Under the pieces are notes generated by a model. The model saw only the letters and a program-made list of their open reading frames with translations. It did not search any database and was not told the DNA's origin. A program made the position numbers and the translations under genes. DNA of 64,000 bases from Zanthoxylum bungeanum (lineage: Eukaryota; Streptophyta; Magnoliopsida; Sapindales; Rutaceae), in NCBI GenBank assembly GCA_019454045.1, contig SKCR01035609.1:62001-126000 (forward strand), written 5' to 3'. Shown in pieces: positions 14,679 through 46,490 of this stretch (its first letter is position 1; each line of letters starts with the position of its first letter).

Positions 14679-14763
14679 TGACCGGTGCATAATCACACGC
14701 GTATAACGCAAGCGCACGTATCGTTCAAGTAGTATAAAAAGTATCGATCCCACGAGGACTTAA
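14679..14763 (-). repeat. G2 3' LTR, outer piece
   Basis: 85 bp matching the start of the other G2 LTR (44343 onward), cut by C1 at CTTAA. The LTR resumes at 24867. Confidence 0.92.
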
Positions 14764-16729: not shown

Positions 16730-16730
16730 A

Positions 16731-16745
16731 TGGTATCAATGAGCC
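16731..16745 (+). other. C1 primer-binding site
   Basis: TGGTATCAATGAGCC lies one base after the LTR. It is the initiator-Met-tRNA type site (as in C2, TGGTATCAGAGCC) with small changes. Confidence 0.85.
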
Positions 16746-21800: not shown

Positions 21801-22836
21801 TTGTTTATATAAGAAGTTTAGTGGGAGAGCACTAACTTTTATTGTCCTTTATGTTGACGATGTATTGCTTGTAGGCAATGACATTCCCATGCTAACGTCG
21901 GTGAAAGCTTGGCTTTCATTGAAATTCTCCATGAAAGATCTGGGAGAAGCAGCCTTTATTCTTGGAATAAAGATCTACCGGGATAGATCTAGAAAGCTGC
22001 TTGGACTCTCCCAGAGTACATATATTGACAAAGTGTTGAAGAGATTCAACATGGATCAGTCCAAAAGGGGACTGTTGCCAGTGTCACATGGTGTCTATCT
22101 ATCTAAGAACATGTGTCCTAAAACTCAAGATGAGAGAGACAACATGAGTCGAATACCATTCGCATCGGCAGTCGGATCGATCATGTATGCCATGATATGT
22201 ACGCGACCTGATGTCTCCTATGCTTTGAGCATGTGTAGTCGATATCAGGCCGATCCAAGTGAAGGTCACTGGATGGCGGTTAAGAATATCCTTAAGTATC
22301 TTAGACGAACTAAGGATGTTTTCTTAATCTATGGAGATGGAGAACTTGAGGTAACTGGGTATACCGATGCAAGTTTCCAAACCGACAAAGACGACTGCAA
22401 GTCGCAATCCGGGTACATATTTTGTTTGAATAACGGAGCAGTGAGCTGGAAATCTTCCAAGCAAGAGACTGTTGCCGATTCAACAACAGAAGCGGAGTAC
22501 ATTGCTGCAGCTGAAGTAGCAAAGGAAGCAGTTTGGATCCAAAAATTCCTAATTGGATTAGGAGTAGTTCCGTTAACAGCTGAGCCCGTTCCATTGTATT
22601 GTGACAATAACGGGGCTATAACACAGGCTAAGGAACCGCGGTCTCATCAATGATCCAAGTATGTTCTTCGACGTTTCCATCTGATTCGAGAGATCATACA
22701 TCATGGCGATGTGAAGGTCGAGAAAGTCGCATCAGATGACAACATGGTAGATCCGTTGACGAAAGCTATTCCTCAGCAAAAGTTTGAGCGACATGTACAT
22801 AGTTCAGGTATTAGATGCTTGAGTGACTGGCTATAG
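18876..22836 (+). pseudogene. C1 Gag-Pol polyprotein, broken
   Basis: Domains in order: gag (18876 to about 19600); a zinc knuckle whose first cysteine has become arginine (R-L-Q-C...H...C, near 19630); aspartic protease with DSG near 19782; gag-pre-integrase WHCRLGH; integrase with HSDVCGP, SDRGGEY and the NGVSERRN glutamate; reverse transcriptase with KWVFK, LVAK and YVDD near 21850; RNase H with TDASF and ADSTTEAEY. It ends at TAG 22834-22836. Breaks seen: TGA at the third codon (18882-18884), frameshifts near 19056 and 19163, TAG at 20626-20628 and TGA at 22651-22653. Both late stops lie in the same frame and fit C-to-T change. The encoded enzymes would copy and insert the element. Confidence 0.95.
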
Positions 22837-22837
22837 G

Positions 22838-22850
22838 CTAAGTGGGAGAT
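22838..22850 (+). other. C1 polypurine tract
   Basis: The purine-rich AAGTGGGAGA directly before the 3' LTR, in the expected place for plus-strand priming. Confidence 0.8.
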
Positions 22851-24861
22851 TGTTGGACAGTTATGACCCATAGCGTCACTGTTTGTAAAAAGACATTATG
22901 TTTTTGTACAAAATTAACTATGTTGTAATGAAATTGCCTTTTACCGTTTTGTAATTTATTTACTTTGATATATAAATGGTAAAAGTCCTAATGATTAATT
23001 CCGGATTGAGATGATATGAGACAATATCAATCCATAAAGATTTAATCATTAAATATCCCTAGTCGTAGTATTATCGAGATTTGACATCGATAATGCAGAA
23101 TAGACTAGTATTGCACTTGTGCGCGTTGTGAGGGCATAACGATATAGTTCTCATATATTTAAGTATTGGATACTTATGCAAGTGAGATAGGAGGTTGTGT
23201 TTTACCGATGGTACGGAAAACAGCTTCGCTCTGATAGACCCCGCGGAATCCCATTGGTAGTATGTATATGTGTCTATGAGAGTCCGCTTCAGGGTATGTG
23301 TATTTGGTCTTAACATGAGACTTGCATCGCTAGTACTTGCGACAATCGGTAAACTTTGGTTTTGGTCATCCAGGGCTTTAACAGGTTCTGTGTACGCCTC
23401 TTCTGGGTTTATTGAGAATCGTAGTGTATTGGATGTGATGTCAAGACAGAAGTATCACTTCAGACATATGGAGATGATGATCACACATGGATTCAGAACT
23501 TGTTCTCTATTGTGTTGCAACCATCGGGATAATATGATAAGGTCATGATTATTCGATTCAAAGAGACTAGTTGCTTGATATCCGATATGTGCTTCGTACG
23601 GGGCAGACACTATTCCAGCCCCAGGCCTTGCATGTGACATCCGATATTGGATCGCAATACACAATACTATTTCTGGAGAATATATTCCAGTAAGAATATT
23701 TCTTACATCCGATATTGGATTGCATGTGACATAGATCGTATATTCCAGTAAGAATATTTCTGGAGAATTGGGTAGGCATGACACTTTGCTAGAATCCAAC
23801 CTTGTCTTGTAAATCGGTAAAAATGTAGTACGAGGTACGTACGTGTTCGGATAGTCCGACGACCGTATTTACTGCCAACATATCCATGGATCTCTTGGGT
23901 CGCTTCCCAAAGATTCACCGATGACGTATGATTCGAGCATAATTAATCTGAGATTAATTGTGGAGAAACTTTATCTTGGATAAAGTACTATTTGAAGAGA
24001 GAGAAAAATTAATTTGGAATTAATCGACAAAATAATATATTCGATATATTAAACGAAATTGGATTTTGACGCAAAATTAAAATTAGATTTTAATTTAGGC
24101 AAACGAGTTAATTTAGAATTAATTCGTTAGCGACGTGAATAGTAATTTTGCTAGGCATAATTATTTAATTACGTTGCGAAAAAAGTTCGTTAATTTGGAA
24201 TTAGCGAAACCGATTCCGGAAGTGTTTGCGGGGCCACTCGCATTTTGAATCAAGTGGGGCCCACAAGTCACATCACGAATCACATCACTTGTCATTTAAA
24301 GGTGATAGATGTCAAAGTCACTTTTTGTGAGTGACATGTTGTCACTATTCCTGATGCAAGTTGTTGAGATCATTTATTACAATTTTGGAGCCAAAATTGG
24401 CTTTGACTTTTTGTAAGCCATTTACCAAAATTTGTAATTGTTTTTCATATACGTTTTTTTTTTTTGAAAAACAAAGATTGAAAAAATAGAACTCTCTCTC
24501 TCTCCAATTTTTCTTGACCGAAACCAGTGAGCTTTTTCCCTCTCTGTTTTTTCTTTCATCTTCACCGAATTTGGAAGGGAAAAACTTGAAGGATTTTGTT
24601 GCAAAATCTTTCATAGAGCTAGCACTCTTCAAGGATCATCAAGAGGTGATAGGGAAACCTAATCAAGAGCTTGGAAAGACAAAACAAAGCTTGGAGCTTT
24701 TGATTTCATCTTGGCTGAATTCTTGGAAAGCTTGGAGGAGAAATTTTGTTGAGCATCACATCCAATCCGTTTAATGTAAGTGTGTTTCCGCCATATTTCT
24801 TTATTGTATTCATTCTATTTCGTGGCTTAAAATGATCTTGGGACATCAATAGAAACCAACA
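22851..24861 (+). repeat. C1 3' LTR
   Basis: 2011 bp. It differs from the 5' LTR mainly by a local rearrangement at about 23665-23740, where a segment containing ATTCCAGTAAGAATATTTCT is present twice. This accounts for most of the length difference. Confidence 0.93.
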
Positions 24862-24866
24862 CTTAA

Positions 24867-26910
24867 TACCTAATCTATTAATTTTATGAGGTCAAATGAT
24901 TACTAGTATCCAACAAGTTGATTGATTGATTTGAAATGGTGATGATTTTGAATTTAAAAACAAGTAAATAAAATTGCGCGAAAGTAGGTTTAAGAAAATT
25001 CAATATTAGGAAACTATCTAGGGTTGTGAATCTTCCAATATCATTTTAAAGATGAAGTGGTTATTTTATTTTTGTGTAATATATCGGTTTACTAACCTGG
25101 AACACTAAATTATGCGAAAGCCTCTGTCGATGGTCAGACGAAAATACCGAGTATAAACCAATTGAACCATATGTCTATGTAAACCAAATTACCTGGATTC
25201 ATTAAGTTTAAGTTCCAATTATGGCTACCCCCGCCCGACAGATATATGTCTGTCCTGTAAGGAAATCTATTAAAGGGTTATCTATCCTCAAGGAAGATCG
25301 TGAGCTATTAAGTATAAGGCGGAAACCTAAAATTCATTTTTCAAGTTTATTTTAGATTTACCAGATCAATCTTATTAGTGGCTAATTAACAAGACGCATT
25401 AAGCTTAAGACTTAATAAGTAAAATTTTAAATTACCCAAACTATAAAATAACCCCTTATAAACCGGTGATATTAGAATTCATCACAACCCCAGATAACTA
25501 ACTTAGTTACGACACATAACTAGGGCTAGTAAAAACTTAAATAAAATAAAAAACATAAAGTAAAATGCTGAAAAGTAATTTCTGAAAAGTAAATGATGGA
25601 AAGTAAATGCTGAAATTAAATACTGAAAATTAAATGCTGAAAAGTAAATGCTGAAAGTAAATTACTGAAAAGTAAATGCTGAAAGTAAATTGCTGAAAAG
25701 TAAATGCTGAAAGTAAATTGTTGAAAAGTAAATAAAGTAAAAGTACAATAAAAGAAAATGCTGAGGTAAAATGATCCACTTTTATTACTTCTATTTTAGA
25801 TATCTCCCTTAATATAATATATTAACTTTGCATGATAATTACCAACCAGCCATATAGGCGGTATCCAGATTAAGTCAAATTAATAATTAATTACCAACCG
25901 ACCAATCAGGCGGTATCCAGTTTAGTCAGGTTAAAACCAATTTAAATAATTACCAACCGACCAATATGGCGGTATCCTCGTTAAGTCAGGTTTTAACTAG
26001 TTTATATATTATAATTAAGGGAGATTAATCTAAATATTAGTAATAAAAGTTTTACCTTTTACCCCAGCAAATGGGAGTTACCTCCTCATTACTGAAAAGT
26101 AAAAACTGAAAATTAAAGAAAGAAAAGTACTGTGCGTAAAAGTAAATTGTGAAAAGTAAAAACTGAAAAGTAAAGAAAAGAAAGTGCGAAAGCGGAAATT
26201 AATTACTGAAAGCTGTAAATAAACAAACAAGATACAATATTCTTAGTATTCTTAAGGAATTCCTTAGAAGAAAGTATGAATTTACAAATGAAATGACTTG
26301 TTATTTATAGGTAAAATTTTGCCTCCACCAAATCCATTATTAATTGCTCTACTAATTGCTCCACCAAATCCATTATTAATTGATCCACTAATTTCTTGTC
26401 ATGTTTGGTGGTGATTTGATAATTTTTATTTTTTATTTATTAATTTATTTTTTTGCTTTGAAAATGATTGAAAATGACTTTAATAATTACACACAACACA
26501 CTTTTAGATAGTTCATCAATTTTGGGCAAGAAATCTTCATAATTCGAAATTATTTTGTCTTTCAAAGTTGTAGATCTTTGAGTCTTCTTTAATCTGGAAC
26601 CTGAATCAGCTCAATTCGATATCGGAGTAAAAAGTTATGCCCAAAATACGACAGATGCGCAAAATTGGAATTTCCAAAACTGCACTTCGTTAAAACTCCC
26701 TTTCAAGTTTCCAATTTCCAAAATTAATATGTCAAGTCCAATTTTTGATCTTATTTGACCCATATTTCGTCCCAAATGATTTTATTGTGTCCCAATATTA
26801 TTTTATCTGCAAAATAAACTAAAATATATCAAAACGTTCATCAAACCCGAGAAACTAAATAAAATATTAAGTAAAATGGGCGGAAAATATTGATATATTT
26901 CCGCTCATCA
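24867..26910 (-). repeat. G2 3' LTR, main piece
   Basis: Continues the LTR interrupted by C1 and ends CTCATCA at 26910. It matches 44430-46490. It contains a run of GTAAATGCTGAAAA-like repeats (25565-25740) and three copies of the ACC...GGCGGT motif (about 25850-25980). Confidence 0.93.
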
Positions 26911-27505
26911 CACCCTCAAACCTAACATTTTGCTAGTCCTCGAGCAAAATAACAAAATAAAATACAAGAAACGATTAAAATTAAACTAAGCCACTTTCGT
27001 AGGGACCACGATTGCATTTAGCATATGCAACAAGCCTTTAAACCCCTAGGTGTCCCTAGTGGACGAGTTATAGTCTCGTGAGGGCTTACAGCAACGATAC
27101 CCTTAAAAGTTTTACAAAATTAAAAAGATGATAAAACTAATGCACACAAAAGCAAAAAGACAAGAGAAAATAGAATAAAGAAGTTAGTGACTAAACAGAT
27201 GAAACATCTAATCCAAGTCAATAGTTGTTTTGTTTCATTCTAAATTACCGAATAAGTATATTCTCCGATTATTTTTACCATTATCCATATACACAGTCGA
27301 AAAAATATTAATCAACTCATTTTTTCCCACAACAGTCACAAGTGCAGTTGATAAGAGAGTAATATTTTTGTCCTAAAGTTTTATCAGAATTCACATCTTT
27401 TTGCAGCAATGGAATAATTTTTCAGAATTTTTTTCTTTGATTTTTGATTTTTTTTTTTATAGACAATATCTTCCATCTATGTAGCGAGTGTTGGGTCGGT
27501 GGCTC
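26911..27505 (-). other. G2 polypurine tract and 3' untranslated region
   Basis: On the minus strand the G-rich tract (complement of CACCCTCAAACCTAACA, 26911-26927) abuts the 3' LTR. The rest matches the region after the LOG gene in G1 (37290-37866). It ends at the G1 insertion, target duplication GGCTC at 27501-27505, and resumes at 39986. Confidence 0.85.
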
Positions 27506-27764
27506 TGATGAGTGGTAAATCTATCACTATTTCCCACTTATTTAACCTAATATTATGTATAGTTTCTTGAGCTTTGTGAATATTTTGATGTATTTTGTGT
27601 TATTTTGTAGATAAATAAAGTTTCAGGACATTCTGGAGGTGATTTTGAGCAAAACAGTGAAAATTGGGAAAATGGGCATTTTGGTAATTTGTCCGCGTCG
27701 CGACGCCAGGACCCTACGCGTCACGATGCCTAAAGTGCGCCGGAAATGCTAACGTGCACCGTGA

Positions 27765-28031
27765 CACATGTCATCATCATAGAAGATCAGCTAAAATGCG
27801 CCGTCTGCCACGTGTAGAAATCTCATTGGACCAAAGCAAGCGCGTGCCACGTGTCGAGTTTTCATTGGACCGAATCACCGGCGAATCACATGCTGCCGCA
27901 TGTTAATCTCTCATTGGACCAATCCTAAACGCGTGCCACATGTCAGATGTTCATTAGACCGAAAGCTCAGCCAATCACCGTCTGCCACGTGTCGTCTTCT
28001 CATTGCACCACCTTTACCGCGTCACACGTGT
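27765..28031 (+). promoter_or_regulatory. G-box/ABRE-like motif array in the U3 of the G1 5' LTR
   Basis: CACGTGT is intact at 27809, 27848, 27986 and 28025. Three more sites have decayed (CACATG near 27765 and 27937, GCATGT near 27896), mostly by changes at the central CpG. Inverted CCAAT boxes (CATTGGACC) alternate with them. Such motifs bind bZIP and bHLH factors in ABA, light and stress responses. Confidence 0.65.
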
Positions 28032-28122
28032 CATCACCAGATTCTGCCGACAATGCACGTGGTCAAAAGCCGCGTTCACTGAAAACTCGTGCTGGCGTCG
28101 CGCGCTGGACGCAAAAATTTTC

Positions 28123-28129
28123 TATAAAT
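28123..28129 (+). promoter_or_regulatory. G1 5' LTR TATA box
   Basis: TATAAAT follows the U3 motif array. The right LTR has the same box at 38551. Transcription probably starts about 30 bases downstream, defining the U3/R border. Confidence 0.7.
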
Positions 28130-29563
28130 TGAGCTCGAGATTTCAGTTTTAGTGGCACCATTCTCTCTCATTTCTTTGATGTAAATAGAGAGTTTCTCTC
28201 TCTAATTTCTTTTAATTTAAGTTTTGTAATTAATTTTTAATTACATTATGTAATAGTAATTACTTTTTGTAATAGTAATAGTAATTTATCTTGTTTTTAC
28301 TGCTTCAGTTTTACTATTCAACCATGATGAGGCAACTTCTCCTTGCTAAGGTGAAAGGTAATTCTTTTACTGTTTCTATTTAGATTAATCTCCCTTAAAT
28401 ATAATATATTTACTATTTAAAATTTGACTTAATAAGGATACCACCATCTTGGTCGGTTGGCTATTAAATTTAAATTGGTTTAAACCTGACTAATCAAGGA
28501 TACCGCCTATATGGCTGGTTGATAATTAAATTTTCTTACCGCCTATATGGCAGGTTCATGGACAAATCACACCGCCTTTATGGCTGGTCGGACTTAATTT
28601 GAATTAATCAGGTTACCGCCTATATGGCTGGTTGGTAATATTATCACAAGTTTATATATTATTTTATGGGAGATATCTAAAATAGTAAATTGCAAAAGTA
28701 ATTCATTTTACCGTAGCATTTTATTTTATTGTTATTTACTTTTCAGTATTTACTTTACCGCATTTACTATTTCGCATTTTTACTTTATGTTTTTTTCTTT
28801 TAAGTTTTTACTAGCCCTAGCCATGTGTCATAACTAAGTTATTTATCTAGGGTTGTGATGAATTTCAATATCACTGGTTTATAAGGGTTAGATTATAGTT
28901 TGGGTAATATAAAGATTTATTTATTGAGTCTTAATCTTAATACTTTTTATTAACTGGCCATTAATAAAATTTGATTAGGTAAACTTAAAATGAACTAGAC
29001 ATAGGGATTTTAAGTTTGAGACCTTAGATTCAATAGCTCACGATCTTCCTTGAGGATAGATAACCCTTTAATAGATTTCCTTACAGGATAGACATATACC
29101 TGTCAGGCGGGGGTAGCCATAATTGGAACTTAAACTTAATGAATCTAGATAATTTGGTTGACATAGACATATGGTTCAATTGGGTTAAACTGGGTATTTG
29201 TGTCTGACCATCGACATAGGCTTTCACATAATTTAGTGTTCCAGGTTAATAAATCAATATATTACCCAGCTATAGGATAAACACTTCATCTTTAAATAAT
29301 ATTGAAAAGATTCACAACCCTAGATAGTTTTTAATATTGAATTTTCTTAAAATTTACTTTCGAACAATTTTATTTACTTGTCTTTAAATTTAGAATCGTC
29401 GCCATTTCAAATCAATCAAACAACCTGTTAGATACTAGTAATCATTTGACCTCATAAAATTAATAGCTTAGGTATTAAGTCCTCGTGGGATCAATACTTT
29501 TTATACTACTTGAACGATACGTACACTTGCGTTATACGTGTGTGTTTACGCCGGTCAAGTTTT

Positions 29564-29581
29564 TGGCGCCGTTGCCGGGGA
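29564..29581 (+). other. G1 primer-binding site, tRNA-Asp type
   Basis: TGGCGCCGTTGCCGGGGA, six bases after the LTR, is complementary to the 3' end of plant tRNA-Asp as used by Athila elements. Confidence 0.9.
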
Positions 29582-29690
29582 CTTATTTATCTTTCACAAT
29601 TAGTTTTAAGGTTAGATACTGTTACTTGTATCTAATTTTCTTTTTACTTATTGTTTTTATTTTCTTGTGTTTCAGGTTCTCAGAAACTTC

Positions 29691-32600
29691 ATGAGACGAA
29701 CCAGAAGCTTTGAACTTCGACCGCTTGACCCGGAAATTGAAAGAACTATCAGACAGTTGAGAAGGGAACGACGAGAAGGCCAAAAAGCTTTAGTCAACAT
29801 AGAACCTGAACCTTTGAACATTGCACCACCAATTCCCATTCGAGACAGAACCATTCCGGTGGTTGACAGACTCATTTCTTGTATTGTACCTCCTCCCTTA
29901 CCAGCAAATGTGGGTGACATCAAAACATGCATTCAGATGATTCAGCAGTCAGTACAGTTTGAAGGAAATGCAATTGAAGATCCTAATACCCACATCAGCA
30001 ACTTCCTGGAAGTTTGTGGCACTTTCAATTACAACCGAGAAGCTGAAGAAGCAATGAGACTGCGTGTTTTCCCATATTCCTTGAAGGATAGAGCTAAAGC
30101 TTGGCTACATTCACTACCATCAGGTTCCATCATAACTTGGAACATTTAGCCACCAAATTTCTTGCAAAGTACTTTCCACCAGCCAGAACTGGAAAACTGA
30201 GAAATGACATCACATCCTTTGTACAACAAGACTCGGAAACTCTCTACGAAGCTTGGGAAAAGTACAAAGATTTGCTCCGGAAATGTCCTCACCATGAGAT
30301 TCCAAAATGGCTTCAAGTCCAAACTTTCTATAATGGACTTTCTGGAATAATGAGAACCACAATCGATGCTGCTGCTGGAGGAGCCCTGATGGCAAAAGGA
30401 GAAGATCAAGCCTGGGACCTAATCGAAGAAATGGCCAACAACAATTCTTTGTGGCCAACAGAAAGGAGCATGATCCAAAGAATTGCAGGAATTTATGAAA
30501 GTGGAGTCAATACAGCAGTCAATACCAAGTTGGATTAGATATGCAAATTCATGGAGACTTTTACCACTGGATCCACAAGTTCACCATATGTACGAGCACC
30601 GGAACCAAACCAACTTGAAGAGATGGTGAATTATGTCAATAATTTCAACAGACAGGGGAACAATCCATATTCCAAGACCTACAACCCATGGTGGAGGAAT
30701 CATCCTAATTTTTCATGGAGTAACAATTCAGGGCAAAAGAACAATCCACCACCTGGATTCCAACAGAACTATCCACCACCTGGATTTCATCAACAAAAAA
30801 CAAAGGCCAGGAGCAGACAAATGAACCAGGAATAGCAGAAGTGCTGGCTCAGTTAAAAAAGTACGATGCTGTGATTCAGAGCCAATCAGCTTCTATTAAA
30901 GCACTGGAGAATCAAATCGGCCAACTGGCCAATGCTCAGAGTTACAGACCACCAGGAAATCTTCCCAGCAACACAGAACCCAATCCAAGGAACCGAGGAA
31001 ATGAGCAAATTCAAGCCATTACTTTGAAAAGCGGTACTGAGATCAACAAAGATGTAGGGATCAAGCCAACAATTGAGGAAATTCCAAAAGATGCAGTTCC
31101 ACAGATGAATGAAAAAGAAGCAAAGGAAAAAGAAAAATCAGATCATTCCACCTCCACCTTTTCCTCAGCGACTTCAGAAAAACAAACTGGACAAGCAGTT
31201 TGCTCGTTTCTTGGAGGTATTCAAAAAGCTGCATATCAACATTCCATTTGCAGAAGCCTTGGAAGAAATGCCCAGCTTTGTCAAATTCATGAAGATATTC
31301 TTTCACGAAAACGGAGATTGGGAGACTACGAAACAGTAGCATTAACGGAAGAATGCATCGCCATTATTCAGAGGAAACTTCCCCCGAAGTTGAAAGATCC
31401 TGGAAGTTTCACAGTTCCATGCACCATTGGAGAACATTACATCGGTAAGGCGTTATGTGATTTAGGAGCCAGTGTTAACTTGATGTCTTTTTCTATTTAC
31501 AGGAAACTGCAGATTGGAGAAGCAATGCCTACCTCAGTTTCATTGCAACTTGCGGACCGAACACTTGCATTTCCAAGAGGTGTTGTTGAAGATGTGCTGG
31601 TGAAAGTAGACAAACTAATTCTCCCAGCAGATTTCATCATCCTTGACATGGAAGAAGACAAAGAAATACCTATCATTCTTGGGAGACCATTCCTGGCTAC
31701 AGGTAAAACTGTGATTGATGTGCAAAAAGAAGAACTAACCATGAAAGTGCAGGACCAAGAAGTGACCTTTAATGTTTTGAAAGCCATGAAATTCCCGAGT
31801 GATGAAAATGAAGAAGAATGCTTCAGAGTTGATGTTGTTGAAAGTATCGTTCAAAATACTGAGCCAAATTCCACAGATACACTTGAAGCTTGCATCATCA
31901 ACATGACTGACAGTGAGCTAGATGCTGAAATCCTGGAATGTATCAACTACCTTGACAAACCATTCCGATTCAAAGCGACACCACCAGTTGAAAGCTTGAA
32001 CTGCCCAAGAAAGATCGAATCAAGCCTTCGATTGAAGAACCACCATAGCTGGAGCTGAAGTTACTTCCGAGCCATCTCAGGTATGCATTTCTTGGAAACA
32101 CTTCTGAATTACCTGTTATTATTTCTTCTTCACTAACATTGGAGCAGGAAGAAAAGCTACTGAGAGTATTACGAGAACACAAAAAGCCATTGGCTGGACT
32201 ATAGCAGACATTCGAGGCATTAGTCCATCATTTTGCATGCACAAGATTCTGATGAACGATGAGTACAAACCCACAGTGGAGCATCAACGGAGACTTAATC
32301 CAATCATGAAGGAAGTCGTGAAGAAAGAAATAATCAAATGGTTGGATGCTGGCATCATTTACCCAATTTCATATAGTAGTTGGGTGAGTCCTATGCAGTG
32401 TGTACCAAAGAAATGAGGAACTACTGTGGTTACCAATGAAAAGAATGAGCTAATTCCAACAAGAACGGTGACTGGATGGAGAGTGTGCATGGATTACCGA
32501 AAGCTGAACAAAGCCACGAGAAAGGACCATTTTCCGCTACCATTCATTGACCAGATGTTAGACAGATTGGCGGGACATGAATTCTATTGCTTTCTTGACG

Positions 32601-34950
32601 GATATTCAGGATACAATCAGACTGCCATCGCCCCACAAGATCAGGAGAAAACCACATTTACATGTCCTTATGGTACTTTTGCTTTCCGCATGATGCCATT
32701 TGGATTATGTAATGCTCCCACCACTTTTCAGTGTTGCATGATGGCCATATTCTCAGACATGCTGGAGCAGAGTATGGAGGTTTTCATGGATGACTTTTAT
32801 ATGTTTGGAGATTCTTTTGATCATTGTTTGCAAAATTTGGAACATGTGTTACAAATGTGCGAAGATACAAACTTGGTGCTCAATTGGGAGAAATGTCATT
32901 TCATGGTACATGAGGGAATTGTTCTTGGACACCGGATCTCACAAAAGGGGATTGAGGTAGACAAAGCAAAGATAAAGATAATTGAAAAACTACCTCCACC
33001 AACATCTGTCAAAGGGATTCGGAGCTTTCTCGGACATGTAGGTTTTTACAAGAGATTTATCAAAGATTTTTCCAAGATTGCAAAACCTCTTTGCAATCTT
33101 CTGGAGAAGGATGTGTCTTTCAACTTCACCAAAGAATGCCAGGAAGCTTTTGAGATCTTAAAGCAGAAGCTGATTTCTGCCCCCATCATTGTAGCACCAG
33201 ACTGGACCCTTCCATTTGAAGTGATGTACGATGCTAGTGATTTTGCTGTAGGTCCAGTTTTGGGACAACGCAAAGCAAAGACTTTCCACACCATTTACTA
33301 CTCCAGTAGAACTCTGAATGAAGCTCAACTCAACTACACAACCACTAAAAATGAGTTGCTCGCAGTTGTGTACGTTTTTGATAAATTCTGCTCCTATATG
33401 CTGGGTCCCAAAGTGGTAGTCTACACAGATCATTCAGCAATCAAATATCTGATCACAAAGAAAGATGCCAAACCCAGATTGATCTGTTGGATACTTATTC
33501 TGCAAGAATTCGACGTCGAGATCAGAGACAGGAAAGGAACAGAGAATCAGGTGGTAGATCATCTATCGAGGCTCGAGAATGGAGAAACAGCTGACAAAGA
33601 TCTGTCAATCAAAGAAAATTTTCCAGATGAACAGCTGTTTGCCATGAAACAACAGGAAGTCCCTTGGTATGCTGACTATGTCAACTACATTGTGTCAGGA
33701 AAATGGCCGTTAGAATGGACAACTCAACAACGGAAAAAGTTCTTCAAAGAAGTCAAACACTATGTCTGGGATGAACCATACCTTTTCAAACGTTGTGCTG
33801 ATCAATTATTGAGACGGTGTGTTCCATAGGAGGAAATCAACAATGTTTTGCAGCACTGTCATTCATCACCATATGGCGAACACTTCAGCGGAAATAAAAC
33901 TGCAGCAAAAGTTCTTCAATCAGGTTTGTTCTGGCCTACTCTTTTTAAAGATGCTTATTTTTTTGCTTTTCAATGTGACAGGTGCCAGAGAACAGGGAAT
34001 ATTTCGAGGAGAAATGAAGGACCATTGCAAAACATTCTAGAAGTGGAAATATTCGATGTGTGGGGTATTGATTTCATGGGACCCTTTGTTCCATCATTCA
34101 GAAACATGTACATCCTGGTTGCTGTAGACTACATCTCCAAATGGGTCGAAGCAATTGCACTGCCATCCAATGATTCAAAAGTGGTGATCAAATTCCTTAA
34201 AAAGAACATTTTCACTCGATTCGGAACACCTCGTGCAATCATCAGCGATGGTGGCTCACATTTCTGCAACAGATATTTTGATGCACTCCTATCCAAATAC
34301 GGAGTTACTCACAAGGTTGCCACAACTTACCATCCACAGTCAAATGGACAGGTTGAGGTTTCAAACAGGAAATCAAAAGAATCCTAGAAAGAACCGTTGG
34401 ATCAACAAGGAGAGACTGGTCAACAAAACTAGATGATGCATTATGGGCCTACAGAACAGCTTACAAGACACCCATTGGTATGTCTCCATATCGATTGGTG
34501 TTTGGGAAAGCGTGCCATCTGCCAGTTGAGCTTGAGCATAAGGCGTACTGGGCACTGAAGAAGTTGAATTTTGATTCACAAGCCGCAGGAGAGAAAAGAC
34601 TTCACCAACTCAACGAATTGGAGGAATTTCGCCTACAGGCTTATGAGAATGCCAAAGTGTACAAGGAAAAGACCAAGAAATGGCATGACCGAAAAATAGT
34701 TCACAGACAGTTGGAACCAAGGCAGCAGGTGTTGTTGTACAACTCGAGGTTGAAACTTTTTCCTGGAAAGTTGAAATCTAGGTGGTCAGGACCATTTGTG
34801 ATCACTCAGGTTTTACCTTATGGAGCTGTTGAGTTACTGGATCCCAATACCAACAACACATTCAAGGTTAACAGTCAACGTGTCAAACACTACTGGGGAG
34901 AATCATTTGAGCGACAAAAAGAAAGTGTCACACTTTCAGATCCAGCTTAA
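29691..34950 (+). pseudogene. G1 Gag-Pol polyprotein, broken
   Basis: Gag begins at ATG 29691, after an acceptor-like TTGTGTTTCAG (ends 29675). Next come protease (LCDLGAS, near 31460), reverse transcriptase ([30 protein letters not shown] near 32790), RNase H (YDASDFAVG) and integrase ([14 protein letters not shown] zinc site, DFMGPF, SDGGSHF, NGQVE) with a C-terminal part to 34950. Breaks: a frameshift near 30145; TAG at 30536-30538 and 30833-30835; a frame change between about 31110 and 31300 that later corrects; a frameshift near 32030; TGA at 32414-32416; TAG at 33827-33829; and a 1-bp loss near 34368. Reverse transcriptase before integrase makes it Gypsy. Confidence 0.93.
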
Positions 34951-35088
34951 CGTTCGAGAAGTCAAGTCTAGCTGACGACTCTAAACTTAGCGCTCGCAGG
35001 GAGGCAACCCATGCAATTTGTGTATATATTGTGATTTGGTGTGATTTAATTTTGTGTGTTTAGTTTTTACAGATTAAGTCATTTCAAG

Positions 35089-35637
35089 ATGGAAGAAGCT
35101 CTCGCAAATCTTCACAAGCAATTTCCTTCTCTCCCTCAAAAATCTCTGATGAAAGTCTACAAAGCTCGCTTGGAACGGATGAGGTTATTGACAATCCATG
35201 GTATTCCTAATGATATTCGTTGGGTAATTGAAGCACAAGTCCGATTGGCAGGTGAGTCTTCTGACTCTTTTATTTCACTTATGCCTGGTTTTGGAAGAAT
35301 CACTTATGCAAAGAAACGTAGAGATAAGCAAATGGGTGTTTGTTTCAAATGTGCATGATTTAATTGCAACACTCGTTGTCGTTCTTTAGGAATGGTGTCT
35401 GATAATCGCGAAGACAAAATTAAATTCATTAGGGATGGCTTGAGTAAAGAGTCTGTAGATGAAATATCTTCAACTTTTGAGACGCATCCCAGTGGATATG
35501 TTCATATAGCCATTCGCAAATTACATACACAATTTCAAAAAGAAAAACAACAGTTAAGTCTTGGGAATCTGACTCAAAAAGACCCTGTTTGCCAATTTAT
35601 AAGAAAATTGGATGGGAAACTTGTCCCTGACGCATAG
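35089..35637 (+). pseudogene. G1 accessory ORF: small basic cysteine-rich protein, one internal stop
   Basis: A 182-codon frame from ATG 35089 to TAG 35635-35637, interrupted only by TGA at 35356-35358 (codon 90). The N-terminal half is amphipathic (ALANLHKQF, VYKARLERMRLL). A basic patch TYAKKRRDK comes next, then C-x2-C, the stop, and C-x3-C (CNTRC), followed by FIRDGLSKESVDE and FIRKLDGKLVPDA. In G2 the residue at the TGA is arginine. The order of basic patch and cysteine cluster in a small protein suggests nucleic-acid binding. It recalls the cysteine-rich protein of carlaviruses, which is an impression to be tested and not a proven homology. A pyrimidine tract ending TTTTTACAG at 35064-35072 lies just before it. 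Confidence 0.75.
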
Positions 35638-35888
35638 ATTTCAATCAAGCCGTTACTTTTCTTGTAAATATTATATCTCTTTGTCTTTTCTTAATAATTG
35701 TAATTTGTTTTGTTGTATTTTCTCCGATAAGATCCATACCTTTTTGACTATCACGATATTTTTTCGCTACTAATCGTCCTCTGGAAGATACTTGTGCTAT
35801 TTTTATTCACCCTTTTCAGGTACTATAAATTCAGCCCGTCTTTGCACTTTTGAAGGCATCCAAAGTTGAGAAAGAAATATATAAAAAA
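35638..35888 (+). promoter_or_regulatory. Spacer with splice-acceptor-like site before LOG
   Basis: The run TTTTATTCACCCTTTTCAG ends at 35819, 70 bases before the LOG start codon. The same tract occurs in G2 (minus strand, near 41420-41440). It may give a spliced subgenomic mRNA for LOG. An in-frame extension with no ATG precedes the start codon. Confidence 0.5.
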
Positions 35889-36542
35889 ATGGAAGTCACT
35901 TCAAGAAGACGAGTTGAAAACATCTGTGTGTTTTGCGGTAGTAGTGTTGGTACTAAACCACAATACATAGAAGCAGCACAGGAATTGGGTCGAGTCTTAG
36001 CGGCAAGGAATATGCACTTAATATATGGCGGAGGAAATCTAGGACTTATGGGGATCGTTTCAAAGGCTGCACAGGAAGGAGGCAGTCACGTTTTGGGAAT
36101 CATCCCAAAACCCTTGGCAGAGGCAAATCTTATTGAACCATCAAACGGAGAGGAACTGATTGTGCCAGGTATGTCTGAACGACTAGTGGAAATGATTAAC
36201 CGTGCTGATGCTTTTATTGCTTTGCCAGGTGGCTTGGGTACATTGGAGGAAATTTTTATTGTGTTATCTTGGGCGAACCTGAACATACACCAGAAACCAA
36301 TTGGACTGCTCAACGTTGATGAATTTTATGATTTTCTTTGTGTGTTTCTTGATGATGCTCGGAGAAATGGGTTCGTGTCAAAACCTTTGAAAGAACTCCT
36401 CTTTACTGCCAGAACTGCTCCGGATCTAATAGACCAACTCATAGCCTATGAACCACGAGTTGACCATATTCATTCAAAGATAAATTGGTCTGAGGACGAT
36501 CGTGGTAAGAGGCATAGGATTAATCTGGATCTTAACCTTTAA
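35889..36542 (+). CDS. LOG: Retrotransposon-borne LOG-type cytokinin riboside 5'-monophosphate phosphoribohydrolase
   Basis: An intact, intronless 217-codon frame from ATG 35889; G2's copy starts at the same place. LOG enzymes cut ribose 5'-phosphate from cytokinin nucleotides, giving the active free base in one step. Motifs seen: ICVFCGSS (residues 12-19), YGGGNLGLMG (46-55), MSER (95-98) and the family signature PGGLGTLEE (113-121, P-G-G-x-G-T-x-x-E). Full length equals usual LOG length. At the R-K pair common in plant LOGs the arginine (98) is kept but the next residue is leucine. The tail ends in LDLNL, an LxLxL (EAR-like) pattern. Host LOG genes have several introns, so this came from a spliced mRNA. 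It lies after integrase in a broken Athila-like element. Enzyme activity is inferred. Confidence 0.93.
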   Translation: MEVTSRRRVENICVFCGSSVGTKPQYIEAAQELGRVLAARNMHLIYGGGNLGLMGIVSKAAQEGGSHVLGIIPKPLAEANLIEPSNGEELIVPGMSERLVEMINRADAFIALPGGLGTLEEIFIVLSWANLNIHQKPIGLLNVDEFYDFLCVFLDDARRNGFVSKPLKELLFTARTAPDLIDQLIAYEPRVDHIHSKINWSEDDRGKRHRINLDLNL

Positions 36543-37866
36543 TTTCATGTAGAATTTCAGCTAACCAGGTATTATTTTCTAAACTCTTCTTCTACTTTTT
36601 AAGACATTGGGGACAATGTCTCATTTAGGTTTGGGGGAGGGAATTAGTTGATCAGTACCTTATTTTTAGTTTGTGTGTTGTTTTTATTTTTAGTCCAAAA
36701 TTTTTCGAAAAAAAAAAAAATTGAAAAATTTTCAAAAAAATACAAAAATATTTTGCGTTTTTGTGTTTTGACTAAAAATGTGAAATTGGTAAAAGATATC
36801 CGAGTAAGGAGTTTCCACTCCTGAGACGTATCTCAAGCCTATTTTCGAAATAAGTTAATTTTTGTTTATTTCCTTTTAAATTATTTAATTTGTGAATTCT
36901 CCTTAACACTGACTAAAATGGACCTTCATATGCTCAGTTGGCAGGTATTATTAACATACATAGTAACATACAGACATGAGCTAAAATTGAAAAGTTTGTA
37001 ATATTAAGTACTCTAGTTTAATCGGAGGAAGCATCTCAAAAAGTGATGGAGTAAAAAAAAAAAAAATCCGAGATCCGAGTTATTAAGTCTGTAAGGGTGT
37101 TTTAACACCTAGTGCCATAAAACCAACTGGTTTGGGAGTCACTAGCCCAAAGCTCGCTACATGGATAAAAGATGCTGCAAAAATATATATATCTGAAGTC
37201 TGAGTAATTAAGTTTGTAGGGGTGTCTTAACACCTGGTGCCCTAAAGCCAACTGGTTTGGGAGCCACCGACCCAACACTCGTTACATAGATGGAAGATAT
37301 TGTATATAAATAAAAAAAATAGAGAAAAATCAAAGAAAAAAATCAGAAAAATCAGAAAAAAATTATTCCATTGCTACAAAAAGGTGTGAAATCTGATAGA
37401 ACTTTAGGACAAAAATATTACTCTCTTATCAACTGCACTTATGATTGTTGTGGGCAAAAATGAGTTGATTAATATTTTGTTGGCTGTGTATATGGAGAAT
37501 GGTAAATATGATGGGAGAATTTACTTATTCGGTAATTTAGAAAGAAACAAAACAACTAATAATAACTTAGAGTAGAAATTTCACCTAATTAGTCACTAAC
37601 TTCTTTATTCTCTTTTCGCTTGTCTTTTTGCTTTTGTGTGCATTAGTTTTACTACCTTTTTACTTTTGTAAAATGTTTGTGGGTATCATTGCTGTAAACC
37701 CTCACGAGACTACAACTCATCCACTAGGGACACCTAGGGGTTTAAAGGCTTGTTGCATACGCTAAATGCAACCGTGATCTCTACGAAAGTGGCTTAGTTA
37801 AATTTTATTATGTTATTTTATTCTATGTTTTGCTCGGGGACTAGCAAAATGTTAGGTTTGGGGGTG
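36543..37866 (+). other. G1 3' untranslated region with two polypurine-like tracts
   Basis: No coding sequence. A perfect dyad (GACATTG, loop GGGA, CAATGTC; 36603-36620) precedes an internal G-rich tract (AGGTTTGGGGGAGGG, 36626-36640). A duplicated block of about 125 bp with TTTAACACC and AACTGGTTTGGGAG spans about 37080-37310. The terminal polypurine tract, AGGTTTGGGGGTG, ends at 37866. Confidence 0.75.
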
Positions 37867-39980
37867 TGATGAGTGGTAAATCTATCACTATTTCCCACTC
37901 ATTTAACCTAATATTATGTATAGTTTCTTGAGCTTTGTGAATATTTTGATGTGCTTTATGTTATTTTGTAGATAAATAAAGTTTCAGGACATTCTGGAGG
38001 TGATTTGGAGCAAAACAGTGAAAATTAGGAAAATGGCATTTTGGTAATTTGTCCGCGTCGCGACGCCTAAAGTGCACCGGACATGCTAACGTGCGCCGAG
38101 GGACACGTGTCAGAATCTAAGAAATTGGACTTGCTAACGTGTGCCGACCTTGCTAACGTGCGCCGTGACACGTGTCATCATCACAGAAAATCAGCTAAAA
38201 TACGCCGTCTGCCACGTGTAGAAATCTCATTGGACCAAAGCAAGCGCGTGCCACGTGTCGAGTTTTCATTGGACCGAATCACCGGTGAATCACATGCTGC
38301 CACGTGTTAATCTCTCATTGGACCAATCCTAAACGCGTGCCACGTGTCAGATGTTCATTAGACCGAAAGCTCAGCCAATCACCGTCTGCCACGTGTCGTC
38401 TTCTCATTGCACCACCTTTAGCGCGTCACACGTGTCATCACCAGATTCTACCGACAATGCGCGTGGTCAAAAGCCACATTGACTGAAAATGCGTGCTGGC
38501 GTCGCGACGCTGAAACCCTTGGCGTCGCGACGCTGGACGCAAAAATTGTCTATAAATTGAGCTCGAGATTTCAGTTTTAGTGGCATCATTCTCTCTCATT
38601 TCTTTGATGTAAATAGGGAGTTTCTCTCTCTAATTTCTTTTAATTTAAGTTTTGTAATTAATTTTTAATTACATTCTGTAATAGTAATTATTTTTGTAAT
38701 AGTAATAGTAATTTATCTTGTTTTTACTGTTTCAGTTTTACTATTCAACCATGATGAGGTAACTTCTCCTTGCTAAGGTGAAAGTAATTCTTTTACTGTT
38801 ACTATTTAGATTAATCTCCCTTAAATATAATATATTTACTATTTAAAATTTGACTTAATAAGGATACCGCCATATTGGTCGGTGGCTATTAAATTTAAAT
38901 TGGTTTAAACCTGACTAATCAAGGATACCGCCTATATGGCTGGTTGATAATTAATTTTCTTACCGCCTATATGGCAAGTTCATGGACAAATCATACCGCC
39001 TTTATGGCTGGTCGGACTTAATTTGAATTAATCAGGTTACCACCTATATAGCTGGTTGGTAATATTATCACAAGTTTATATATTATTTTATGGGAGATAT
39101 CTAAAATAGTAAATAGCAAAAGTAATTCATTTTACCTTAGCATTTTATTTTATTGTTATTTACTTTTCAGTATTTACTTTACCGCATTTACTATTTCGCA
39201 TTTTTACTTTATGTTTTTTCTTTTAAGTTTTTACTATCCCTAGCCATGTGTCATAACTAAGTTAGTTATCTAGGGTTGTGATGAATTTCAATATCACCGG
39301 TTTATAAGGGTTAGATTATAGTTTGGGTAATATAAAGATTTATTTATTGAGTCTTAATCTTAATGCTTTTTATTAACTGGCCATTAATAAAATTTGATTA
39401 GGTAAACTTAAAATGAACTAGACATAGGGATTTTAAGTTTGAGACCTTAGATTCAATAGCTCACGATCTTCCTTGAGGATAGATAACCCTTTAATAGATT
39501 TCCTTACATGATAGACATATACCTGTCGGGCGGGGGTAGCCATAATTGGAACTTAAACTTAATGAATCCAGATAATTTGGTTGATATAGACATATGGTTC
39601 AATTGGGTTAAACTGGGTATTTGTGTCTGACCATCGACAGAGGCTTTCACATAATTTAGTGTTCCAGGTTAATAAATCAATATATTACCCAGCTATAAGA
39701 TAACCACTTCATCTTTAAATAATATTGAAAAGATTCACAACCCTAGATAGTTTTTAATATTGAATTTTCTTAAAACTTACTTTCGAACAATTTTATTTAC
39801 TTGTCTTTAAATTTAGAATCGTCGCCATTTCAAATCAATCAAACAACCTGTTAGATACTAGTAATCATTTGACCTCATAAAATTAATAGCTTAGGTATTA
39901 AGTCCCCGTGGGATCGATACTTTTTATACTACTTGAACGATACGTACGCTTGCGTTATACGTGTTTGTTTACGCCGGTCA
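37867..39980 (+). repeat. G1 3' LTR
   Basis: 2114 bp, matching 27506-29557. It keeps about 60 bp more of the U3 repeat array than the left copy, and two copies of GCGTCGCGACGC before the TATA box where the left LTR has a deletion between them. Confidence 0.95.
38104..38435 (+). promoter_or_regulatory. Eight CACGTGT motifs in the U3 of the G1 3' LTR
   Basis: CACGTGT occurs at 38104, 38169, 38213, 38252, 38301, 38341, 38390 and 38429, mostly 39-49 bp apart, with CATTGG (inverted CCAAT) boxes between. GCGTCGCGACGC palindromes occur at 38055, 38499 and 38522, and the TATA box at 38551. Confidence 0.75.
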
Positions 39981-39985
39981 GGCTC

Positions 39986-40716: not shown

Positions 40717-41369
40717 TTAAAGGTTAAGATCCAGATTAATCCGACGCCTCTTACCATGATCATCCTCGGACCAATTTATCTTTGAAAGGATAGGGTCAAT
40801 TTGTGGTTCATAGGCTAAGATTTGGTCAATTAGATCCGGAGCAGTTCTGGCAGTGAAGAGGAGTTCTTTTAAAGGTTTTGACACGAACCCATTTCTCCGG
40901 GCATCATCAAGAAACACACAAAGAAAATCATAAAATCCTTCAACGTTGTACAATCCAAGCGGTTTCTGGTGTATGTTTAGGTTCGCCCAAGATAACACTG
41001 TAAAAATTTCCTCCAATGTACCCAAGCCACCTGGCAAAGCAATAAAAGCATCAGCACGATTAATCATCTATACCAGTCGTTCAGACATACCTGACACAAT
41101 TAGCTCTTATCCGTTTGATGGTCCAATAAGATTTGCCTCCGCCATGGGTTTTGGATGATTCCCAAAACGTGACTGCCTCCCTCATGTATAGCTTTTGAAA
41201 CGATCCCCATAAGTCCAAGATTGCCTCCGCCATATACTAAGTGCATATTCCTTGCAGCTAAGACTCGACCCAATTCCTGTGCTGCCTCTACGTATTGTGG
41301 CTTAACACCAACACTAGTACCGCAAAACACACAAATGTTTTCAACTCGTCTTCTTGAAATGGCTTCCAT
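40717..41369 (-). pseudogene. LOG: LOG pseudogene of element G2
   Basis: Read from ATG 41367-41369 on the minus strand. It keeps ICVFCGTS, YGGGNLGLMG, PGGLGTLEE and the LDLNL end. One C is lost in a short C-run near 41150, shifting the frame. In the original frame a stop (complement of CTA, 41068-41070) replaces a glutamate codon of G1. It is also intronless, starts at the same codon and sits in the same place relative to the cysteine-rich ORF and polypurine tract as in G1, so the two descend from one capture. The signature region between the breaks is unchanged. Confidence 0.92.
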
Positions 41370-41620: not shown

Positions 41621-42079
41621 CTATGCGTCAGGGACAAGTTTCCCATCCAATTTTCTTATAAATTGGCAAACAGGGTCTTTTTGAGTCAAATTCCCGAGAC
41701 TTAAATGTTGTCTTTCTCTTTGAAATTGTGCATATAACACACGAATTTCGTGATACACATACCCACTGGGATGCGTCTAAAGAGTTTTAGATATATCATC
41801 CAAAGACTCCTTACTCAAGCCATCCCTAATGAAATTAATCTTATCTTCGCGGTTATCAGACACCATTCCTAAAGAACGACAACGAGTATCACAAAACATA
41901 CGAGCACATTTATAACAAACACACATTCTTTTGGCTCTTCTCTTTTTAGCATAGGTGCTCCTTCCTAAACCAGACAGATGTGAAATAAAAGAGTCAGAAG
42001 ACTCACCTGCTAATCGGACCCGTGCTTCAATAATCCAACAAATGTCAGTAGGAATACCTTTAATCATCAGTAACCACAT
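41621..42079 (-). pseudogene. Cysteine-rich accessory ORF of G2, 5' truncated
   Basis: Matches G1 35178-35637. It keeps the basic patch TYAKKRRAKRM and an uninterrupted C-x2-C-x3-C-x3-C cluster (CYKCARMFCDTRC). It has a stop near codon 152 of the full frame (complement of CTA at about 41778), where G1 has glutamate. G1 and G2 carry different stops, so the common ancestor was open through both positions. The first third is lost to the deletion that removed reverse transcriptase through integrase, and the frame now abuts protease at about 42079. Confidence 0.82.
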
Positions 42080-44342: not shown

Positions 44343-46490
44343 TGACCGGTGCGTAATCACACGCGTATAACGCAAGCGTACGTATCGTTCAAGTTGTATA
44401 AAAAGTATCGATCCCACGAGGACTTAATACCTAATCTATTAATTTTATGAGGTCAAATGATTACTAGTATCTAACAGGTTGATTAATTGATTTGAAATGG
44501 TGATGATTTTGAATTTAAAAACAAGTAAATAAAATTGCGCGAAAGTAGGTTTAAGAAAATTCAATATTAGGAAACTATCTAGGGTTGTGAATATTCCAAT
44601 ATCATTTTAAAGATGAAGTGGTTATTTTATTTTTGTGTAATATATCAGTTTACTAACCTGGAACACTAAATTATGCGAAAGCCTATATCGATGGTCAGAC
44701 GCAAATACCCAATATAACCCAATTGAACCATATGTCTATGTCAACCAAATTACCTGGATTCATTAAGTTTAAGTTCCAATTATGGCTACCCCCGCCCGAC
44801 AGGTATATGTCTATCCTGTAAGGAAATCTATTAAAGGGTTATCTATCCTCAAGGAAGATCGTGGGCTATTAAGTCTAAGGCGGAAATCTAAAATTCCTTT
44901 GTCAAATTTATTTTAGATTTACCAGATCAATCTTATTAGTGGCTAATTAACAAGACACATTAAGCTTAAGACTTAATAAATAAACCTTTAAATTACCCAA
45001 ACTATAAAATAACCCCTTATAAACCGGTGATATTAGAATTCATCACAACCCCAATAATTAACTTAGTTACGACACATAACTAGGGCTAGTAAAAACTTAA
45101 ATAAAATAAAAGACATAAAGTAAAATGCTGAAAAGTAAATTGCTGAAAAGTAAATAACGGAAAGTAAATGCTGAAATTAAATACTGAAAATTAAATACTG
45201 AAAAGTAAATGCTGAAAGTAAATTACTGAAAAGTAAATGCTGAAAGTAAATTGCTGAAAGTAAATTGCTGAAAAGTAAATGCTGAAAGTAAATTGCTGAA
45301 AAGTAAATGAAGTAAAAGTACAATAAAAGAAAATGCTGAGGTAAAATGATCCACTTTTATTACTTCTATTTTAGATATCTCCCTTAATATAATATATTAA
45401 CTTTGCATGATAATTACCAACCAGCCATATGGGCGGTATCCAGATTAAGTCAAATTAATAATTAATTACCAACACACCAATCAGGCGGTATCCAGTTTAG
45501 TCAGGTTAAAACCAATTTAAATAATTACCAACCGACCAATATGGCGGTATCCTCGTTAAATCAGGTTTTAACTAGTTTATATATTATAATTAAGGGAGAT
45601 TAATCTAAATATTAGTAATAAAAGTTTTACCTTTTACCCCAGCAAAGGGGAGTTACCTCCTCATTACTGAAAAGTAAAAACTGAAAATTAAAGAAAGAAA
45701 AGTACTGTGAGTAAAAGTAAATTGCGGAAATTAAAAACTGAAAAGTAAAGAAAAGAAAGTGCAAAAGCGGAAATTAATTACTGAAAGCTGTAAATAAACA
45801 AACAAGATACAATCTTCTTAGTATTCTTAAGGAATTCTTTAGAAGAAAGTATGAATTTACAAATGAAGTGGTTTGTTATTTATAGGCAAAATTTTGCCTC
45901 CACCAAATTCATTATTAATTGCTCCACTAATTGCTCCACCAAATCCATTATTAATTGCTCCACTAATTTCTTATCATGTTTGGTGGTGATTTGATAAATT
46001 GTATTATTTATTTATTTATTAATTTATTTTTTTTCTTTGAAAATGATTGAAAATGACTTTAATAATTACACACAACACACTTCTGGATGGTTCTTCAATT
46101 TCGGGAATGAAATCTTCATAATTCGAAATTATTTTGTCTTTAAAAGTTGTAGCTCTTTGAGTCTTCTTTAATCTGGAACCTGAATCAGCTTAATCTGATA
46201 TCAGACTAAGAAGTTATGCCCAAAATACAACATATGCGCAAAATTGGAATTTCCAAAACTGCACTTCGTTAAAACGCCCTTTCAAGTTTCCAATCTCCAA
46301 AATTAATATGTCAAGTACAATTTTTGCTCTTATTTGACCCAATTTTCGTCCTAAATGATTTCATTGTGTCCCAATATTATTTTATCTGCAAAATAAACTA
46401 AAACACATCAAAACGTTCATCAAACCCGAGAAACTAAATAAAATATTAAGTAAAAGGGGCGGTAAATATTGATATATTTTCCGCTCATCA
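44343..46490 (-). repeat. G2 5' LTR
   Basis: 2148 bp, matching 14679-14763 plus 24867-26910. Its 3' part (R-U5) matches the G1 LTR, including ACC..GGCGGT repeats (45417-45555). Its U3 (46030-46400) lacks the G-box array of G1 and is unrelated there. The TATA box is probably the complement of TTATTTATAG near 45876-45885. Confidence 0.93.

Follow-up and report, generated by a model that had tools for sequence, protein, structure and literature searches.

Why should a retrotransposon carry a gene of the LOG family, whose working members release active cytokinin? We analysed a 64,000-nucleotide stretch of the Zanthoxylum bungeanum genome (contig SKCR01035609.1, positions 62,001 to 126,000; hereafter the window), in which an open LOG-derived frame lies inside an LTR retrotransposon that we call G1. 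The original prediction took this frame to be an intact cytokinin-activating gene that the element had captured from a spliced host mRNA. Our preferred reading, held tentatively and at somewhat less than even weight, is that LOG and a neighbouring frame, ORF X, form an old accessory module in an amplified Ty3/gypsy family, the LOG-derived product being host-interacting or re-specified and not cytokinin-making.

The elements in the window and their copies across the genome

G1 has the reverse transcriptase, RNase H and integrase order of a Ty3/gypsy element between two LTRs with a target duplication, and we presume it to be Athila-like, the label originally given to it, from features of the reverse transcriptase and primer site. 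Both LTRs start with TGATGAG and end with CGGTCA, and the K2P distance between them is 0.040 with the 17 extra bases at each LTR start included. The features of G1 are as follows:

27501..27505, + strand: left copy of the perfect 5-bp target duplication GGCTC
27506..29557, + strand: 5' LTR, from LTR comparison
29564..29581, + strand: primer binding site TGGCGCCGTTGCCGGGGA, which we take to correspond to the tRNA-Asp 3' end
29616..30538, + strand: gag frames, with a frame change near 30,100
30724..32058, + strand: frame with a weak protease match (RVP_2, 19.7 bits, under the cut-off of 20.3)
32417..33829, + strand: reverse transcriptase and RNase H (Pfam)
33830..34950, + strand: integrase in two overlapping frames (Pfam for 33830-34387)
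35089..35637, + strand: ORF X, between integrase and LOG, Viral_NABP/Carla_C4-related, with an in-frame stop at 35356
35889..36542, + strand: LOG-derived gene of 217 aa (P0001) with a C-terminal KRHRINLDLNL tail (open frame, Pfam, structure model)
37851..37866, + strand: polypurine-rich tract, directly 5' of the 3' LTR
37867..39980, + strand: 3' LTR, from LTR comparison
39981..39985, + strand: right copy of the perfect 5-bp target duplication GGCTC

The gag-pol region of G1 is not intact, being divided among frames at 29616-30149, 30098-30538, 30724-32058, 32417-33829, 33830-34387 and 34357-34950, and 34366-34785 matches the integrase of a Citrus gene model discussed below. The sequence TTTCAG stands directly before the gag start, and the LTRs hold short tandem repeats with CCACGTGTC-type boxes (27801-28010 and 38205-38414), which are possibly promoter elements. 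The matched LTRs and perfect target duplication around the LOG frame were as originally described, and so was the placement of a LOG gene without introns at the position of env, after integrase and before the 3' polypurine-rich tract. No Athila-named Pfam family was found among the G1 and G2 frames scanned; ORF X and LOG fill the env position.

The 217-codon open frame with its PGGxGTxxE motif belongs to the LOG family. P0001 matches Pfam PF03641 (2.8e-36) and the Arabidopsis proteins At2g37210 (PDB 2a33, 1.6e-58; we take it to be AtLOG3) and At5g11950 (1ydh, 2.2e-50; presumably AtLOG8), and its TIGR00730 score is above the cut-off. Against the NCBIfam equivalog NF058542 (cut-off 300) it reached 117.7 bits, and P0033, a relative with a canonical pocket, only 137.9. 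The AlphaFold model of P0001 (pLDDT 86.3; below 50 for residues 204-217, the tail) superposes on 2a33 chain B with a TM score of 0.95, normalised to the target; it shows the LOG fold and lies near LOG structures determined in the presence of AMP, and the protein keeps PGGLGTLEE together with the proposed catalytic residues R98 and E121.

G1 is itself inserted within a second element on the opposite strand, G2, which has its own perfect target duplication, ACATG:

44343..46490, - strand: 5' LTR of G2
41627..42079, - strand: ORF X remnant of G2
40717..41369, - strand: G2 LOG gene, interrupted by two in-frame stops and a single-base deletion
24862..26910, - strand: main part of the G2 3' LTR (remainder at 14679-14764, on the far side of an inserted copia element)

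The copia element nested in the G2 3' LTR (14764-24861) has long open pol frames. Elsewhere in the window, a tandem array at 10817-11988 (100-base unit, 11.7 copies, 97% matches) is flanked by two repeats of ~595 bases that are 99% alike (7486-8079 and 12205-12798).

The genome carrying the window (3.96 Gb, 51,709 contigs) was scanned with a 35-base pattern from LOG. With three mismatches allowed at most, this gave 22,569 matches (11,297 + 11,272), against 0 + 0 for the reversed control. An integrase pattern gave 5,941 matches against the 22,569 for LOG, two counts that are not comparable because the stretches differ in conservation and both were taken from G1. In a protein search with LOG, 150 of 70,264 candidates were scored, being best hits and not a random sample; the best genomic matches listed cover at least residues 2-216 at no less than 93% identity, and 16 of those listed have one internal stop. 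A search of this genome with host LOG3, again with 150 scored, was swamped by element copies at 47-51% identity.

We read 60 stretches, namely the 20 best protein-search hits and the first 40 places listed for the 35-mer, all of the latter matching it without mismatch. Integrase end, ORF X and LOG occur in one order and on one strand (type A) in 19 of the 20 best-hit loci and 27 of the 40 pattern loci, making 46 loci; L024, from the best-hit set, has an internal deletion. The other 13 pattern loci (type B: L032, L036, L037, L040, L045, L049, L050, L054, L055, L060, L063, L064 and L066) have LOG with the same 3' region as type A, and in all 13 no integrase or ORF X match was found within 1.75 kb upstream of LOG. 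Twelve of them have ~1.7 kb of upstream sequence in common; in L040 the likeness is confined to roughly the final 0.42 kb. The four type B loci read for it (L036, L054, L060 and L063) contain an acidic gag-like frame, largely unbroken in L054 and fragmented elsewhere; the L054 frame matched no Pfam family, and a CCHC-type stretch is the sole ground for calling it gag-like. A tree built from LOG plus its 3' flank did not unite type B in one clade (6 changes against a shuffled mean of 11.7), and the well-supported branches are compatible with a single origin. LOG was fully open in 15 of the 20 best hits and 12 of the 40 pattern loci (8/27 type A, 4/13 type B).

The original prediction had looked to further copies beside element genes as its check, and these were found: integrase, ORF X and LOG stand in that order in 46 of the 60 loci read. 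As G2 holds a broken LOG copy and the pattern recurs genome-wide, the LOG gene is neither a one-off capture nor an artefact. Two candidate explanations, a host LOG locus hit by G1 and an assembly artefact, were rejected on the ground that LOG recurs at many places with the element's own neighbours.

ORF X and the splice-like signals

The ORF X piece of G1 falls below both Pfam cut-offs (18.9 and 14.6 bits). The naturally open ORF X of L015 scores 29.5 bits with Viral_NABP (PF05515; 8.8e-7, cut-off 23) and 24.2 bits with Carla_C4 (PF01623; 3.4e-5, cut-off 20.9), and the G2 piece at 41783-42079 is likewise above cut-off, at 31.2 (2.8e-7) and 29.9 respectively. By a pattern-based definition ORF X is open in 13 of the 46 type A loci, and all 13 of these copies match Viral_NABP at E <=0.01 and 12 match Carla_C4. 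The structure model of ORF X was weak (pLDDT 49.5), a PDB profile search with ORF X found nothing, and IMG/VR scans for relatives of LOG and of ORF X confirmed none. ORF X is thus related to a nucleic-acid-binding protein family of plant flexiviruses. Like the cysteine-rich nucleic-acid-binding proteins (CRP/NABP) of carla-, allexi- and mandariviruses, ORF X passes the PF05515 and PF01623 cut-offs, in the open copy and the G2 piece; unlike them, it resides in an LTR retrotransposon and has extra sequence on both sides. According to the available part of PMC12172455, these viral CRPs suppress RNA silencing and determine pathogenicity. In the open-licence literature we found no paper bringing together carlavirus, nucleic acid-binding protein and retrotransposon.

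Splice-like sites around these frames were aligned over the 46 type A loci with G1 and G2, and the mean dinucleotide agreement with G1 over the splice-site region was 0.83:

35071..35072, + strand: AG of a splice-acceptor-like site before ORF X (AG in 45/47 rows)
35252..35253, + strand: GT of a splice-donor-like site (CAG/GTGAGT, the slash marking the cut) in ORF X (GT in 47/48 rows)
35818..35819, + strand: AG of the acceptor-like site CCTTTTCAG, 69 bases 5' of the LOG start codon (AG in 47/48 rows)

A like acceptor site, TTTTCAGG, precedes LOG in 13 of 13 type B loci. In G1, ORF X cannot be joined in frame to LOG through the acceptor at 35819, because a stop precedes the point, 35829, from which the LOG frame is open. 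We infer from these signals that the ORF X and LOG RNAs would be spliced. Retroviral env is translated from a spliced sub-genomic RNA, and in our preferred reading the ORF X and LOG proteins would be made in the same env-like manner. The extra ORFs of G1 share with the env-like ORFs of other plant LTR retrotransposons a sense orientation between pol and the 3' LTR, and splicing is mentioned for Bagy2, but the extra ORFs of G1 are related to LOG and NABP (PMC7264820, in the part available).

It is possible, if on balance unlikely, that the two genes constitute a virus-like module, in which a gene of the plant-flexivirus CRP/NABP family and a captured LOG turned nuclear co-repressor-binder would be expressed from spliced RNAs and would blunt host silencing of the element, with LOG kept by the integrase-less passengers.

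Substrate pocket, C-terminal tail and selection

The available part of PMC4979012 proposes Arg99 and Glu122 of CgLOG as catalytic residues, gives Met96, Lys100 and Glu121 as adenine contacts, and describes a likely prenyl pocket of Met96, His97, Lys100, Glu125 and Trp129, said to be identical (M-H-K-E-W) in AtLOG3, OsLOG and CpLOG. Alanine mutants of the AMP contacts of CgLOG were almost without activity, S19A excepted, Lys100 itself not being confirmed among them (PMC4979012). The P0001 equivalents are R98/E121 for catalysis, M95/L99/E120 for adenine and M95/S96/L99/I124/W128 for the prenyl group; three of the five prenyl-pocket residues are changed (His96Ser, Lys99Leu and Glu124Ile by position), and M and W are kept.

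The relatives compared came largely from the best 120 listed of 7,844 hits, most of these on short contigs in which element context is not visible. They amounted to 128 proteins including P0001, with four Citrus models trimmed to their LOG part. Once six models (multi-domain or duplicated) and the 14 rows with lengths beyond the range 185-335 aa had been removed, 108 rows including P0001 remained, which are not independent, many being near-copies. Lys99 was lost (to L, I or M) in 98 of the 108, the same 98 had lost Glu124, and the other 10 keep both. Host-side LOGs, from the best 120 listed, have the pocket Lys and the pocket Glu in 113/113 each, a uniformity that is partly a matter of choice since the host query held canonical sequences. 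The 61 genomic rows (G1 and the 60 loci) all have Leu at position 99, and at position 124 they carry Ile (49 rows) or Thr (12 rows). R98 is present in 57, the others having three stops and one Gln; W128 is present in 55 and E121 in all 61, although for 40 of these it lies inside the sampled 35-mer. With the prenyl pocket altered in this way and 98 of 108 rows without the pocket Lys and Glu, the description of the gene as cytokinin-activating is doubtful: the pocket for the hormone precursor is altered, so that the LOG relative of G1 probably no longer does the ordinary LOG job.

Some hydrolase activity may remain, since most pocket-derived rows keep the catalytic pair (R98 and E121 together in 85 of 98). 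An enzyme that cuts the N-glycosidic bond of another nucleotide, for example shaping nucleotide pools in reverse transcription, would account for a catalytic pair outlasting the specificity residues, and the closeness of the fold to AMP-bound structures would suit it; we nevertheless hold it to be unlikely, if still worth weighing, as some sister rows without the catalytic residues, P0124 for example, keep full-length frames and tail, which argues that catalysis can sometimes be dispensed with. Gln or Cys replaces the catalytic Arg in nine rows (P0107, and P0010 with its kin), and four Citrus rows (P0122-P0125), unlike G1, have Ala at the proposed catalytic Glu, with P0122 and P0124 keeping the LxLxL tail. 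These losses, the changed adenine- and prenyl-contact residues and the near-inactivity of the CgLOG alanine mutants other than S19A (PMC4979012) make it unlikely that G1 carries a selfish hormone gene, a working LOG whose active cytokinin would favour dividing cells in which the element can spread, even though the LOG fold and PGGLGTLEE are intact, the catalytic Arg and Glu are present in G1 and most copies, LOG is under purifying selection (see below) and ten related rows keep the canonical pocket. A poison subunit that pairs with host LOG, the pocket spanning the dimer, and lowers host cytokinin activation would fit with Glu125 and Trp129 of CgLOG coming from the neighbouring subunit (PMC4979012, in part) and with the loss of the Glu while W128 is kept in 97/98 pocket-derived rows, but is very improbable, as ~47-51% identity to host LOG3 may not allow mixed dimers.

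P0001 ends in LDLNL, which after a basic stretch forms an LxLxL (EAR-like) motif by the definition of the EAR motif in the available part of PMC9956375; LxLxL is short and common. It occurs within the last 12 residues of 82/98 pocket-derived rows against 0/113 host-side LOGs, and a basic pair within the last 16 residues of 92/98 against 5/113. A looser end rule (alternate positions hydrophobic right up to the C-terminus, with R or P also accepted in the final one) fits 91/98 pocket-derived rows and also 14/113 host LOGs. Of the 61 genomic rows, 60 retain the tail leucine at position 213, all 61 that at 215 and 56 that at 217. The G1 family shares with the host plant LOGs 2a33 and 1ydh the fold, PGGxGTxxE and the proposed catalytic Arg and Glu, but differs from them in its pocket Lys and Glu and its LxLxL tail. 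P0046 combines a canonical pocket with the tail, and P0033-like and Xanthoceras rows have a canonical pocket and end in the basic stretch only, which suggests the order basic end, then LxLxL, then pocket loss. The Xanthoceras LOG-like clusters P0103, P0108 and kin (35 and 39 member sequences) have a canonical pocket and a KKRRLA end, and are perhaps an earlier stage of the same capture.

Selection was assessed by a frequency split, not a codon model, in which variants private to one copy were taken mostly as post-insertion decay and those shared by four or more copies mostly as passed through active elements. The LOG test used 61 rows (60 loci, 20 of them picked for likeness to G1, and G1 itself), with codons around the 35-mer excluded. 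Private variants numbered 55 silent, 138 changing and 8 stops (omega 0.92), and shared variants 63 silent, 40 changing and 1 stop (omega 0.23; Fisher p 6e-8 against private). Omega was 0.84 private and 0.27 shared when C>T/G>A changes were removed (p 0.0012), 0.70 and 0.22 in type A alone, and 0.73 and 0.19 in the 13 type B rows by themselves, where a variant counted as shared from three copies upwards (p 0.0014). The integrase end (26 rows) gave 0.83 private and 0.08 shared, and ORF X (47 rows) 1.35 and 0.38 for its first piece and 1.14 and 0.33 for its second. Two stretches beside LOG, read in a pseudo-frame, showed no significant drop (1.51 to 1.0, p 0.32; 2.34 to 1.17, p 0.36). The comparison of element copies by Ka/Ks proposed at the outset gave a LOG dN/dS of 0.29 between G1 and G2 (bootstrap 0.15-0.53, 214 codons). 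With shared variants mostly silent and private ones near neutral, the LOG gene has been kept under selection in the element family. A functionless passenger in a successful family, looking intact because many copies are young, might be suspected from only 12 of 40 copies being intact in the less selected sample, but hardly comes into consideration given the fall in omega in LOG and not significantly in the two neighbouring stretches, and given that the gene is open in relatives of ~50-87% identity.

Descent and meaning

The Citrus sinensis gene model P0125 repeats the G1 order of integrase, ORF X and LOG, and models P0122 and P0124 consist of integrase-LOG and ORF X-LOG respectively. Identity between Citrus and both G1 and G2 is ~48-54% over the ORF X pieces and ~63-65% at the integrase end, and the cysteine part of ORF X is absent from the P0125 model. 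A tree of 59 selected rows places all 35 pocket-derived ones in one clade (98/93), with the canonical-pocket rows outside it, and joins Citrus, whose branch is long, to the window family (99/91). The N-terminal extensions of P0010 and P0011 match the element's leader on both sides of the LOG acceptor, with values of 47 and 59 where shuffled sequences reached at most 30 and 36, and that of Xanthoceras does so marginally (33 against 31), in a comparison that somewhat favours the observed values, these being maxima over seven loci and the 100 shuffles covering two. Of the proposed capture of a host mRNA, what stands is that the gene is LOG-derived, intronless and part of the element; a recent capture from this plant is not supported, and the event looks older because Citrus P0125 has the same integrase, ORF X and LOG order.

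The statement that no LOG-bearing retrotransposon had been described was wrong. The available part of PMC9289625 reports that Gypsy consensus sequences from C. sinensis and C. clementina contain a YgdH/LOG domain, as do those of Populus trichocarpa when that study's count filter is not applied, and calls the finding 'in line with' Steinbauerova et al. 2011. These elements resemble G1 in having a LOG-type domain in a plant Gypsy element, and P0125 has the G1 order. LOG-bearing Gypsy elements are therefore already known, and what is new here relative to PMC9289625, which in the part available gives domain presence and nothing on these points, is the pocket, the tail, selection, the splice-like sites, the integrase-less subfamily (type B) and ORF X. 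The same source, as far as available, describes a Phalaenopsis Gypsy element with an AlkB m6A demethylase, which is comparable in that a host-type enzyme gene became fixed as an extra ORF, but that enzyme is unrelated and is reported to be active in vitro (PMC9289625).

In our preferred reading of an old accessory module, ORF X would be a small cysteine-rich nucleic-acid-binding gene of viral type, and a plant LOG transcript would have been captured before the Citrus and window families parted, and would have gained the basic-LxLxL tail; the gene would then have lost its cytokinin-precursor contacts, with the fold and usually the proposed catalytic Arg and Glu retained. The LOG-derived protein may benefit the element by interacting with the host through its EAR-like tail, with TOPLESS-type co-repressors as one example of what the tail might bind; alternatively, within the same module, it may act as a nucleotide hydrolase of changed specificity. 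The LOG-derived gene of G1 is a real, selected accessory gene and apparently old, and its sequence makes ordinary LOG activity doubtful.

On a practical level, users of plant genome annotations should be aware that element copies can be annotated as LOG genes, which could inflate cytokinin-gene counts, and some Populus hits named LOGL10 may be element copies. The system also makes it possible to ask directly whether retrotransposons make use of genes from a family of viral silencing suppressors. If our preferred reading is true, it would show how a transposon domesticates a host hormone enzyme, which has been selected, multiplied thousands-fold, changed in its pocket and given a new tail.
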